Assembly: GCA_016786465.1 (NCBI GenBank)
Contig: JAEUWC010000001.1
Coordinates: forward strand, 1 to 40,365
Length of the DNA stretch: 40,365 nucleotides
From: Bdellovibrionales bacterium
GTDB lineage: Bacteria > Bdellovibrionota > UBA1018
Reading direction: 5' to 3'
The translations under genes and the position numbers were made by a program. This document shows, one piece after another, positions 24,085 through 28,854 of the stretch (within the stretch, counting starts at the first letter, position 1; every line of letters begins with the position of its first letter). The notes beneath the pieces are model-generated. The model was not told the DNA's origin and searched no databases. It saw only the letters and a list, made by a program, of their open reading frames with translations.

Positions 24085-26859
24085 ATGATTCAGCCCCAGA
24101 AGCGCGAACTTGCCAAAAGCTTTGAACCCAAGGGTTTCGAAACCGAAGTCTATCAGTTTTGGGAAACCCAGAAGTGCTTCGAAGCCCAGGATGAATCGGC
24201 GCCGGGGCAAAAAGCGTTTTCGATCATGATTCCTCCGCCGAACGTCACCGGCGTCTTGCATATCGGCCATGCACTGACTTTGACCATTGAAGACATTTTG
24301 ACCCGTTGGCGCCGCATGCACGGCGACAATACATTGTGGCTTCCCGGAACCGATCACGCCGGGATTGCGACGCAAGCGCAGGTGGAAAAGGCCATTGCCA
24401 AAGAAGGCAAAGGTCCGTCCGGTCGACCCATGACCCGTCACGATATGGGTCGTGAAGCTTTTTTAAAACGCGTCTGGAAATGGAAAGAAGATCACGGATC
24501 TTCAATCGTTCGGCAAATGCGTCGGTTAGGAGCGTCCGTCGATTGGTCGCGTGAACGCTTCACGATGGATGAAGGCTTGTCTAAGGCCGTTCGTGAAGTC
24601 TTTGTGAAATTGTATGAAGACGGCCTGATTTACCGCGGAGAGCGCATCATCAATTGGTGCGTGCGCTGTCAAACAGCGCTTTCGGATCTGGAAGTCGTGC
24701 CAACCGATCGCAAGGGGTCATTCTGGCACATTCGTTATTCGGTTGAAGGCGGCGGGGCTGACGTGGTGATTGCGACCACGCGTCCGGAAACATTGCTAGG
24801 CGATTCGGCAGTTGCGGTTCACCCCGACGACGATCGCTACAAGCATCTTCATGGCAAGAAAATGGTTTTGCCGCTTTTGGGCCGAAAGATTCCGCTGATC
24901 ACCGACGAATACGTCGATCGAGAGTTTGGAAGTGGCGCTTTGAAGGTCACTCCGGCCCATGATTTTAACGATTCGGACTTGGGCAAGAAGCATGGCTTGG
25001 AATTCATCCAGGTCATGGGTCTTGACGGAAAGATCACCGCAGCCGGCGGTCCGTATGCGGGGCTGAAATTTGCCGAAGCCCGCGAGAAAATCATCGCTGA
25101 TTTAGAAGCCGCAGGAATCTTGGTCAAAGTCGAACCGCATTCGCACAAAGTCGGTCTTTGCCAGCGCTGCGATACGGTCGCTGAACCCGTGATGTCCAAG
25201 CAGTGGTTTGTGAAGATCGCGCCTTTGGCGAAGCCAGCGATCGAAGCGGTGGAAACTGGAAAAATTCAGTTCAGTCCGAAATCTTGGGAAAAGACTTACT
25301 TTGAATGGATGTACAACATCCGCGACTGGTGTATTTCGCGCCAGCTTTGGTGGGGCCATCAGATTCCGGCCTGGTACTGCGGAAAATGCGAGGCGGTTTC
25401 GGTTTTGCGAACGGCGCCGACGAAGTGTCCATCTTGCGGCGCGGGTGCTTCAGATTTGCGCCAAGACGAAGACGTTTTGGATACCTGGTTTAGTTCGGGA
25501 CTTTGGACCTTTTCGACGCTGGGCTGGCCTGAAAAGACGAAGGCTTTGAAAACGTTTTATCCGAATTCCATTATGGAAACGGGATTTGACATCATCTTTT
25601 TTTGGGTCGCCCGGATGATCATGATGGGAATCCACTTCATGAAGGACGTTCCTTTTCACAAAGTTTACCTTCACGCGATGGTTCGTGACGAAAAGGGTGA
25701 AAAGATGTCCAAGTCCAAAGGCAACGTCATTGATCCGCTGATTTTGATGGATCAGCACGGCGCGGATCCGTTGCGTTTTACGCTGACGGCGATGGCCGGG
25801 CAGGGGCGCGATATCAAGCTGGCGGTGGACCGCGTGGAAGGCTACCGCGCTTTTTGCAATAAGTTCTGGAACGCGACCAAGTTCTTTCATCTGCAGATGG
25901 AACCTGAACAGGGCGGGCCCGTGGCTGCGCCCGCGGGCGGTGTTTCGGCCTGGATTTTGGCGAACTTTAAGAACCTTTCGCCGATGCACCGTTGGATCAT
26001 TTCTAGGCTTCAGTCTGTGACGGCAGAAGTAGAAGCGGGGTTTGCGGGTTTTGAACTGAACCTTTCGGCCCAGGCTTTGTATGAATTTACGTGGAACGAA
26101 CTTTGCGATTGGTACATCGAATTTTCCAAACTGTCGCTTCGCCGCGGCGGACGTGATCGCGAAGAAACTTTGTATGTTCTTCATTACGTCTTGGATGGCG
26201 TCTTAAAGCTGATGCATCCGATCGTCCCTTTTGTGACCGAAGAACTTTGGCAGTCGCTTCCGTGGACCGAGCCGGTTCAAGGCAAACATCGGGCTGCTCA
26301 CGGATTACCTCAGATCAAAACTTTGATGCTTCAGGCGTTTCCGGAAAAGAATCCTGCGCTGATGGATGAAAGTGCCGAAGAGACACTAAAAAGACTTCGA
26401 GCCGTCATCGGAGCAATTCGAAACTTCCGTGGAGAGCTAAATCTTTCACCTAAGGTTGAATTTGCGGTTAATTTCATGACTCCGACAGCTGCTTCTGCTT
26501 CTCTGATGGAACGCTACTCAACTGAGATCTGCGCGTTGGCGCGACTTTCAAATCTGCAGCCGGTAATGGGTGCTGCTGCTGAATCCGAATCCGTGATTCC
26601 TTTGATGGATCCTTTGATGGAACTTCGCATTCCTTTGAAGGGCTTGATCAACGTCGAAGACGAAACCAAGCGCTTGAAAAAGGAAGCCGAACGGGTAGAG
26701 GGCGATATCGCGTTCATTCGAAACAAACTTTCTAAGGAATCGTTTATTGCGAAAGCGCCCGCTGAATTGGTGGCAAAGGAACGCGCACGCGAGGCTGAAC
26801 TTATGGGAAGCCTAAAGGAAATCAGCGCTTCGATCGAGCGGTTGAAGAAACTGTCTTAG
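24085..26859 (+). CDS. valS: Valyl-tRNA synthetase
   Basis: ValRS charges tRNA-Val and edits mischarged threonine. The product (924 residues) has the class I HIGH motif at 59-62 (PPPNVTGVLHIGHAL) and KMSKS at 540-544. The CP1 editing domain lies between them (TTRPETLLGDSAVAVHP). A zinc-ribbon-like Cys cluster is present (WYCGKCE and CPSCG), followed by the anticodon-binding domain. The C-terminal coiled-coil arm is NVEDETKRLKKEAERVEGD to the end. An AGGAGG directly abuts the ATG at zero spacing. No other start codon lies between the preceding in-frame stop and this ATG, so the ribosome-binding geometry is odd. Confidence 0.96.
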   Translation: MIQPQKRELAKSFEPKGFETEVYQFWETQKCFEAQDESAPGQKAFSIMIPPPNVTGVLHIGHALTLTIEDILTRWRRMHGDNTLWLPGTDHAGIATQAQVEKAIAKEGKGPSGRPMTRHDMGREAFLKRVWKWKEDHGSSIVRQMRRLGASVDWSRERFTMDEGLSKAVREVFVKLYEDGLIYRGERIINWCVRCQTALSDLEVVPTDRKGSFWHIRYSVEGGGADVVIATTRPETLLGDSAVAVHPDDDRYKHLHGKKMVLPLLGRKIPLITDEYVDREFGSGALKVTPAHDFNDSDLGKKHGLEFIQVMGLDGKITAAGGPYAGLKFAEAREKIIADLEAAGILVKVEPHSHKVGLCQRCDTVAEPVMSKQWFVKIAPLAKPAIEAVETGKIQFSPKSWEKTYFEWMYNIRDWCISRQLWWGHQIPAWYCGKCEAVSVLRTAPTKCPSCGAGASDLRQDEDVLDTWFSSGLWTFSTLGWPEKTKALKTFYPNSIMETGFDIIFFWVARMIMMGIHFMKDVPFHKVYLHAMVRDEKGEKMSKSKGNVIDPLILMDQHGADPLRFTLTAMAGQGRDIKLAVDRVEGYRAFCNKFWNATKFFHLQMEPEQGGPVAAPAGGVSAWILANFKNLSPMHRWIISRLQSVTAEVEAGFAGFELNLSAQALYEFTWNELCDWYIEFSKLSLRRGGRDREETLYVLHYVLDGVLKLMHPIVPFVTEELWQSLPWTEPVQGKHRAAHGLPQIKTLMLQAFPEKNPALMDESAEETLKRLRAVIGAIRNFRGELNLSPKVEFAVNFMTPTAASASLMERYSTEICALARLSNLQPVMGAAAESESVIPLMDPLMELRIPLKGLINVEDETKRLKKEAERVEGDIAFIRNKLSKESFIAKAPAELVAKERAREAELMGSLKEISASIERLKKLS

Positions 26860-26883
26860 TTTTAGGCTTGCGGGAAGCCGCGG

Positions 26884-27101
26884 CAGTTGTCGGAAGTGTG
26901 TCGGATTTGAGCGGGGACACGGGTTGGGGTCTCTCTGTTCAGTTGTCGGAAGTCTGTCGGACTAGGTTCTGCTTCCGATACAGTCTTTCTGAATCCGACA
27001 CAGTTCCGACAGCTGAACAGGGTCGCGGGTACGAGGTGAGTGGGGCGAGATCCGACACAGTTCCGACAGCTGAACCGGATGTCCGACAAACTTCCGACAC
27101 C
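26884..27101. repeat. Cluster of five inverted/direct TGTCGGAA repeats (REP-like)
   Basis: Two copies of CAGTTGTCGGAAGT followed by GTGTCGGA or CTGTCGGA lie on the plus strand at 26884-26905 and 26940-26961, spaced 56 bases apart. Two identical 25-base copies in reverse orientation (TCCGACACAGTTCCGACAGC, then TGAAC) lie at 26994-27018 and 27051-27075, spaced 57 bases apart. A fifth, diverged copy is at 27081-27101. Copies 2 and 3 can pair over about 25 bases with a 32-base loop, and copies 1 and 4 could pair outside them. This may be a REP-like element, a binding-site array or a large terminator hairpin. Confidence 0.85.
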
Positions 27102-27157
27102 CTAGGTGTCAACGCGACGCGCCGCCAACTGATCAAAATTAACCCCAGTCAACGAAA

Positions 27158-27181
27158 TCAGGTTAAAATCAAATGACCTGA
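27158..27181. promoter_or_regulatory. Dyad overlapping the plsB upstream region
   Basis: TCAGGT and ACCTGA form a perfect inverted repeat around a 12-base spacer that contains a -10-like TAAAAT (27164-27169). The second half ends two bases before the plsB ATG, where a ribosome-binding site would be expected and none is seen. It could be an operator or a start-blocking hairpin. Confidence 0.35.
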
Positions 27182-27183
27182 CT

Positions 27184-28854
27184 ATGCAACCGTCTGACTT
27201 CCACGAGTTTGGAAAAAGCCATCCGATCATTCGTTTCGAAAAAGTCCCTACCGGAGACGGCGCAATCCTTCGTCTGGATCAAGTCCGTCAGCGAATACAA
27301 GCGGACGTGGTCCGGCAGACCCTGATTTCTTTACAAGGACAATCCCCAGATAATCTTTTGGGCGAAGCCCTTTATTCCGAACGCGCGCGCCTTCGCCGCG
27401 AAAAGCCCACGATCTTCACCCGTGGTCGATACAATCGTGACCGCGCCATCTGGAGCGAAATTCAAGCCGGCCTGCTGAAGCCTGTCGCGCTGGTCGACCG
27501 AAACCAATTGGTTCGCAAGGTCTTGAAACATTACGTTGAAGAAATCACGGGCCGTTTCAGCCAGCGCGTCTACAATTTCACCACAAACGCCATCCCGTTT
27601 GGGATGAATTATCTTTTGAACGCAGCCACGGTGAATCACCTGGTTCCTTGGAAGCTGAATCAATCGCTTCAGTCGCGGCTTCAGATCTTGGGTGAAATCC
27701 CGCATCTTCAGCGGCTGTCGCAAAAAGGCACCGTCTTGATGGTGCCCACGCACCAAAGCAACATCGACAGCATATTAATTGGCTACATCATTTACTTGAT
27801 GCAGCTTCCGCCGTTTGCCTATGGCGCGGGGCTGAACCTTTTCAGTAACCCCGTTTTAAGTTTTTTCATGGGCAACCTGGGCGCGTACACCGTCGACCGC
27901 AAAAAGAACAACGCGATCTATAAGGAAACGCTGAAGAACTATTCCACGCGAATGCTTCGCGAAGGGATTCATTCGATCTTTTTTCCAGGTGGTGGACGTT
28001 CGCGAAGCGGTGCCATCGAAACGAAAGTGAAACTGGGGCTTTTGGGCACGGGGTTAGAAGCCATGCGACTGAATCTGAAAGAAAACGTCGAAAAGCCCAA
28101 CATCTATGTGGTGCCGCTGGTGATGTCGTATCACTTCGTTCTAGAAGCTTCGTCTTTGATCGAAGATTACCTTTTGGAAGCCGGAAAGGGCCGCTACCTG
28201 CTTCACGGCGATCCTTCGAACCAGTTTAGTAAGGTTCTGAATTTCTTTTGGCAGGTTTTTTCGGCCAATAATGGAATCACCGTTCGCGTCGGTAAGCCGA
28301 TGGATATTTTCGGAAACTTTGTCGACGAAGACGGTCGATCCATCGGACCCAATGGAACGACTATCGATCCCAAGCGCTGGTTGATGACCCGCGGAGAATT
28401 TCACGCCGATCCCCAGCGCGATCACGAATACACGCGTGAATTAGGAAGCAAGATTGTCGAACGCTTTCACCGTGAAAACACGGCGATGACTTCGCACTTG
28501 GTTGCGTTCGCGTTTTTTGAAACCCTTCGATCGAATTATCCGGACGCAGACCTTTTCAAGTTCTTGCGCATATCCTTGGCTCAGCGTTCGATTCCTTACG
28601 ACAACTTTCTGCGTTCGGCCGAAATCTATCACCAGAAGCTGATGAAGCTAGCCGATCAGGGCAAGATTTTTGTTTCCGATTGGTTGATGACCACCGACAC
28701 CAAAAAATGGGTCGAAGACGGGATCAAGAATCTGGGAATCTTTCACGGAAACGCCGTTCTTCGCGTGAATGATGGCGAAATCTATACCGAAGACATGAAC
28801 CTTCTTTATTATTACCGCAACCGATTGGCAGGGTATGGGCTCGAATCACGCTAA
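27184..28854 (+). CDS. plsB: Glycerol-3-phosphate 1-O-acyltransferase (PlsB-like)
   Basis: The enzyme acylates sn-glycerol-3-phosphate to lysophosphatidate at the inner membrane. The product has 556 residues, shorter than E. coli PlsB (807). The acyltransferase block I is THQSNID with the HX4D pair His190 and Asp195. Then come GAYTVDRKK (block II), FFPGGGRSRSG (block III, EGGRSRTG in most; here a Gly replaces the Glu) and VPLVMSYHFVLE (block IV). No clear transmembrane helix is seen apart from a hydrophobic patch after block I. The 3' end overlaps gpsA by 20 bases, which supports the glycerol-3-phosphate role over a DHAP acyltransferase. Confidence 0.8.
   Translation: MQPSDFHEFGKSHPIIRFEKVPTGDGAILRLDQVRQRIQADVVRQTLISLQGQSPDNLLGEALYSERARLRREKPTIFTRGRYNRDRAIWSEIQAGLLKPVALVDRNQLVRKVLKHYVEEITGRFSQRVYNFTTNAIPFGMNYLLNAATVNHLVPWKLNQSLQSRLQILGEIPHLQRLSQKGTVLMVPTHQSNIDSILIGYIIYLMQLPPFAYGAGLNLFSNPVLSFFMGNLGAYTVDRKKNNAIYKETLKNYSTRMLREGIHSIFFPGGGRSRSGAIETKVKLGLLGTGLEAMRLNLKENVEKPNIYVVPLVMSYHFVLEASSLIEDYLLEAGKGRYLLHGDPSNQFSKVLNFFWQVFSANNGITVRVGKPMDIFGNFVDEDGRSIGPNGTTIDPKRWLMTRGEFHADPQRDHEYTRELGSKIVERFHRENTAMTSHLVAFAFFETLRSNYPDADLFKFLRISLAQRSIPYDNFLRSAEIYHQKLMKLADQGKIFVSDWLMTTDTKKWVEDGIKNLGIFHGNAVLRVNDGEIYTEDMNLLYYYRNRLAGYGLESR

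Follow-up and report, generated by a model that had tools for sequence, protein, structure and literature searches.

What is the array of inverted TGTCGGA repeats that lies between valS and a plsB-like gene in this Bdellovibrionales genome, and how might it have arisen? The array sits in a window of 40,365 nucleotides, by which the whole stretch of DNA analysed is meant, and the question can be approached through its internal architecture, its relatives elsewhere in the genome, and its resemblance to known binding sites and mobile repeats.

Architecture of the array

The initial annotation had placed five TGTCGGA-x-TGTCGGA-type units in two orientations within 26884-27101, at near-equal spacing within each pair. 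All five are present as exact TGTCGGA-N4-TGTCGGA copies between 26888 and 27099, with two units on the forward strand and three on the reverse, in agreement with those coordinates, and the start-to-start spacing proved to be 56 bases in the forward pair and 57 between the first two reverse units, with the fifth unit following at a spacing of 31. Two of the reverse copies had been described as identical over 25 bases; the identity stands, and its length is 26 bases by reading (26993-27018 = 27050-27075). With up to three mismatches permitted, the window contained the same five units and no more, compared with a mean of 0.69 and a maximum of 3 in 100 shuffles. The array and its neighbours are laid out as follows, with linker types as defined in the next section.

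24085-26859, plus strand: valS, upstream neighbour, a firm assignment
26888-26905, plus strand: unit 1, TGTCGGA-AGTG-TGTCGGA, type-B linker, outermost unit of the left arm, exact match
26906-26943, plus strand: left-arm spacer of 38 nt, its 3' end formed by the CTGTTCAGT box (26935-26943)
26944-26961, plus strand: unit 2, TGTCGGA-AGTC-TGTCGGA, type-B linker, exact match
26962-26993, no strand: centre of 32 bp separating the two arms
26994-27011, minus strand: unit 3, TGTCGGA-ACTG-TGTCGGA, type-A linker, exact match
27012-27050, minus strand: right-arm spacer of 39 nt, its minus-strand CTGTTCAGC box occupying 27012-27020
27051-27068, minus strand: unit 4, TGTCGGA-ACTG-TGTCGGA, type-A linker, exact match
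27082-27099, minus strand: unit 5, TGTCGGA-AGTT-TGTCGGA, type-B linker, outermost, with a short spacer (spacing 31)
27184-28854, plus strand: PlsB-like acyltransferase gene, downstream neighbour

The PlsB-like protein scored 60 bits against the PlsB model, below the model cut-off, which exceeds 600, and Rfam gave no match within the window. The interval between valS and plsB spans 324 bp here, as opposed to an estimated -3 to 113 bp in four relatives (L258, L270, L280, L284), so that the array is probably extra DNA. Most relatives for which the valS end was examined carry, by eye, a thiamine pyrophosphokinase-like gene between valS and plsB; at 26859-27184 of the window this gene is absent, and the array occupies its position.

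A dispersed family with facing arms

The suspicion that the unit is dispersed was borne out by a genome-wide count, in which the 3.63 Mb genome (30 contigs) yielded 58 exact units, against 1 for a reversed control, and 11 array loci (C1:10145, C1:110897, C3:146866, C3:184649, C9:31562, the window, C19:54473, C21:33415, C21:58636, C23:207471 and C29:129470), two isolated one-mismatch units (C4, C13) being left out of the array count. A single locus, L031, holds 25 of the 58 exact units in overlapping form, its left arm having expanded to 29 forward heptamers at steps mostly of 11 bp. Facing arms are present at 10 of the 11 loci, C23:207471 being a single arm, and the centres of the nine two-armed loci other than the window measure 8 to 80 bp, except for 581 bp in L034. 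The outermost heptamers (TGTCGGA ... TCCGACA) form terminal inverted repeats, as in a MITE, at all ten two-armed loci, with one side degenerate in L033. The target-site duplication expected of a MITE was not found at eight of these ten, and four-base coincidences occurred at L032 and L038. Because centres and spacers differ from locus to locus, no recent copies of a whole element are apparent.

The repeating module has the consensus CTGTKCAGY-TGTCGGA-ASTS-TGTCGGA, with heptamers 11 bp apart and a length of 56-57 bp (58 once). Its CTGTKCAG box is found in 18 of the 18 arms having a regular module, and before the outermost unit CTGTKCAGY is frequently absent or degenerate. Box included, the spacer of these 18 arms measures 38 nt (7 arms), 39 nt (10) or 40 nt (1), and the inner spacer has a GC content of 73%, compared with 52% for the window. 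Spacer identity between loci is 37%, against 33% in shuffles, a value that none of 2000 shuffles reached; owing to this low but excess identity and the fixed length, the spacers appear to descend, as distant copies, from a single ancestor, a pattern of common origin plus length constraint in which sequence was not retained. Spacers within one arm are identical or alike at L031, in the minus arm of L037 and at L040, and the near-identity seen at L031 and L040 points to tandem duplication.

The arms can be divided into two types by linker, namely type A, NYYG (mostly ACTG), and type B, WGTN (AGTC, AGTA, AGTG, AGTT, TGTT). An A arm is paired with a B arm at nine of ten two-armed loci, the exception being L034 (B with B); if nine A arms fell randomly among 20, such pairing would have P = 0.03, a value that is suggestive only, since the linker classes were defined post hoc. 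A rule of one A and one B arm per locus is accordingly no stronger than suggestive, and it is weakened by the window and L037, in whose A arms the outermost unit carries a B linker. Spacers are slightly more alike within arm types than between them (P = 0.03), and the second-heptamer variant TGTCGGG is confined to B arms.

By reading, the arrays are intergenic, in tandem, divergent and convergent settings, often flush with gene ends and often a few tens of bases from a start or stop codon; open reading frames running through them were treated as spurious. No common function is apparent among the neighbouring genes. L034 is the sole locus with a gene between its arms, an XRE-type gene (HTH_31/HTH_3, L034:2036-2635) whose reading frame extends into the left arm.

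Among the genomes searched, the family is restricted to this one. Across 368 genomes of the phylum, none other of the same genus, matches were confined to this genome and three others with one unit each, and the 57 relatives searched held one single unit in total. Plasmid and phage collections returned matches near E = 10 only. TGTCGGA arrays with 11-bp steps also occur in scattered genomes (66 stretches) and phages (17), several of those examined, among the matches listed, looking coding. A universal TGTCGGA iteron was rejected: triple arrays in viral contigs, to which this control was confined, amounted to 18 stretches, against 14, 10 and 16 for three scrambled heptamers, so that short 11-bp arrays of other heptamers also occur there. 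Among such side occurrences, a TGTCGGA 11-bp array lies inside an AlbA_2/HATPase_c_4 coding sequence of Cryomorpha (L099:1214-2764), just before its winged-helix part, and phage contigs L110, L112 and L121 carry a gene family whose coding sequence contains TGTCGGACAGG repeats downstream of an N-terminal portion, ribbon-helix-helix-like by eye, for which Pfam gave no such domain in L110. An AlbA_2/HATPase_c_4 protein was dismissed as binder, PF13749 being absent from this genome in a search for PF13749 alone.

A Dehalococcoidia genome also holds 62 exact units, against 0 for the control, and 4 were counted in a Kiritimatiellia genome. Alignment of ten loci of the former (OY282365.1: L044, L049, L054, L057, L058, L064, L078, L080, L094, L101) revealed a dispersed element of this distant phylum in which a conserved promoter-like block precedes the array and a single inverted copy follows it; the block, TTGACG...TAGAGTAT, lies immediately 5' of ATGACACAG, followed by TGTCGGAWAAG arrays at 11 bp. 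It shares heptamer and step, and not the two-armed module, and was therefore kept outside the family; it exceeds the scrambled-heptamer background, yet the heptamer match may be coincidental.

Binding, movement and competing explanations

The proposal that the two half-sites form a protein-binding direct repeat fits the 11-bp distance between heptamers and the expansion of the L031 arm, mostly in 11-bp steps. Judged from this period and its expansion, the heptamers are most likely iterons for a sequence-specific protein, bound side by side on one DNA face. The explanation we prefer, with a probability of about 0.55, is that the array belongs to a genome-restricted, non-coding, BIME-like repeat with putative iterons as units, spread by copying and tandem duplication. 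Under such a scheme, a sequence-specific protein would bind adjacent heptamers along one DNA face, the two-armed unit would be copied into new intergenic sites, and modules within an arm would multiply by tandem duplication. That the family is mobile at all is something we infer. Weighing against this explanation are the lack of target-site duplications beyond the four-base coincidences at two loci, the divergence of centres and spacers between loci, and the post hoc linker classes with their B-linked exceptions in two A arms.

The same iterons could instead be fixed sites, immobile and kept by selection, for a protein that organises the chromosome or regulates genes, for which ParR, which works through iterons, serves as a model and the XRE-type protein of L034 as a candidate self-regulating binder. 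This reading, which we consider doubtful, would account for the strict heptamer sequence, the 11-bp steps and the constant module length, and it draws on the HTH_31/HTH_3 gene that L034 alone encloses and on CarH operators as known tandem 11-bp repeats (PMC9304148, excerpt). However, the neighbouring genes share no visible function across tandem, divergent and convergent contexts, the 57 relatives lack the arrays apart from that one unit, the XRE protein has only weak homologues in relatives (partial matches of no more than 41% identity), and modules stepping by 56-57 bp, about 5.4 turns, lie out of helical phase. A role at the RNA level, with facing arms forming a long hairpin by which transcripts of either strand would be protected or terminated, is very unlikely. 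The stretch 26880-27105 folds as RNA to -107.2 kcal/mol, against -80.6 ± 4.8 in shuffles (z -5.5), several arrays begin a few tens of bases from stop codons, and the predicted fold contains the nested pairing that had been proposed as a large cruciform or hairpin. Such a structure can thus form, but the pairing is apparently not the selected feature, because linkers of facing A and B arms are non-complementary at nine of ten loci and spacers differ between arms. In addition, the arrays of L032 and L037 sit, by reading, between divergent start codons, and an intrinsic terminator was rejected, since the arms are not followed by a T-tract and no terminator match lies within the window array. No conserved hairpin emerged from the spacers of the 18 arms, whose folding does not surpass that of shuffled sequences (mean z -0.12 ± 0.30); the left arms of the window and L031, together with L039, fold well singly.

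As to a mover, the linked transposase-like gene that the initial annotation envisaged exists at one array and does not generalise. Five Y1_Tnp genes were found, four above the family cut-off, and one of them, the RAYT gene C23:208217, begins (ATG by eye) 468 bp rightward of the solitary type-A arm, which flanks the gene on one side alone. Among 33 RAYT loci scanned in this genome and its relatives, this is the one with a heptamer array; the other 32, three of them in this genome, have no such array. The RAYT-type HUH transposase beside this array is a candidate mover, and the adjacency is to be taken as a lead and no more. A divergent REP/RAYT system, in which the arrays would be BIMEs mobilised by C23:208217 through recognition of direct-repeat units, not of a classical hairpin, is possible though unlikely. 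The 468-bp proximity speaks for it, with a rough chance of about 0.03 that a RAYT gene lies next to any array end (11 arrays with 2 sides each and 5 such genes, set against an assumed total of about 3500 genes), as do inverted pairs of two variant units with unrelated inter-repeat segments in BIMEs (PMC2817692, excerpt) and atypical REP-like structures in some HUH subclasses (PMC6006769, excerpt); the missing spacer hairpin and GT[AG]G tag, the array-free state of the remaining RAYT loci and the one-sided arm count against it.

Direct repeats of at least 14 nt adjoin 4 of 33 RAYT loci and 2 of 14 control loci. Three RAYT genes of this genome adjoin direct repeats unlike the heptamer, with steps of 19, 33 and 18 bp (L129:2037-2104, L131:2127-2173 and L039:3318-3380, respectively). 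Four same-order relatives (G002, G018, G025, G035) gave 23 to 27 RAYT-protein matches, some possibly pieces, so that genes are perhaps fewer; this is far above the single full-length RAYT gene that publications describe for each REP type. As a general partner of the heptamer, RAYT was rejected, no Y1_Tnp match being found in the Dehalococcoidia and Kiritimatiellia genomes that share it. The C21:23956 transposase, which we take to be IS3-like, was likewise set aside as mover: the closest array is more than 9 kb away, and no 25-base inverted repeat with at most seven mismatches was found in its surroundings. Searches for an autonomous relative with matching ends covered the rve family, which returned one gene, and Y1_Tnp.

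It is also conceivable, if quite unlikely, that the arrays serve a mobilisation system not yet described as its substrate, with polarised ends of 11-bp iterons, type A facing type B, and an enzyme that is perhaps an HUH/RAYT protein using direct repeats in place of hairpins; the Dehalococcoidia genome with its 62 exact units would in that event represent a second case, whether related or independent. Should the preferred BIME-like explanation hold, the family would be an interspersed repeat with two distinguishable ends and without the palindrome taken to define REPs, widening the known forms of small non-autonomous repeats and allowing a clear test of RAYT-type enzymes for the ability to use substrates other than hairpins. 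Were it merely a genome-specific repeat, it would make a modest addition to the catalogue.

Comparison with known systems

Like REP/BIME elements, the family is scattered between genes in clusters of inverted copies at regular spacing, and the likeness to BIMEs and REPINs extends to modules in tandem, a pair of variant units in each element, inter-repeat segments that are unrelated and one array near a RAYT gene. Whereas REP is an imperfect palindrome, the unit here is a direct heptamer pair, and the 5' REP tag GT[AG]G (GTAG/GTGG) is missing from the module consensus. Failing the REP definition in palindrome and tag, the family was given the working name BIME-like, not REP/BIME. The RAYT link at 1 of 33 loci scanned is a further difference, as is copy number, with 11 loci here against more than 100 REP copies usual per genome (PMC2817692, excerpt).

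The BrickBuilt MITE of Porphyromonas gingivalis, known from 19 copies, is similarly species-limited, always intergenic, and built of inner tandem repeats with inverted ends, but it has unspaced 23-bp repeats between a leader and a tail where the present family has spaced modules in facing arms (PMC4596501, excerpt). A CRISPR array, which would have unique spacers between repeats of one orientation, was rejected, as arms with several modules repeat the same or a similar spacer (L031, the minus arm of L037, L040) and the arms are inverted. The 11-bp step is common to CarH operators, whose tandem 11-bp direct repeats are read on one DNA face; those sites lie at carotenoid promoters, whereas the arrays occupy 11 unrelated loci, and a CarH operator was rejected because its motif nnnnTnnACAn, TGTnnA on the other strand, requires an A where TGTCGGA has G (PMC9304148, excerpt). 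No description of a two-armed TGTCGGA family was encountered among the papers listed in the open-access literature searched. The TAACTGA repeats of Beggiatoaceae are likewise numerous intergenic direct heptamer repeats scattered over phyla, but their 7-nt copies directly adjoin one another and mostly precede start codons, with one inverted case (PMC4679880, excerpt); in comparison, steps of 11 bp and facing arms are the features that set the TGTCGGA family apart.
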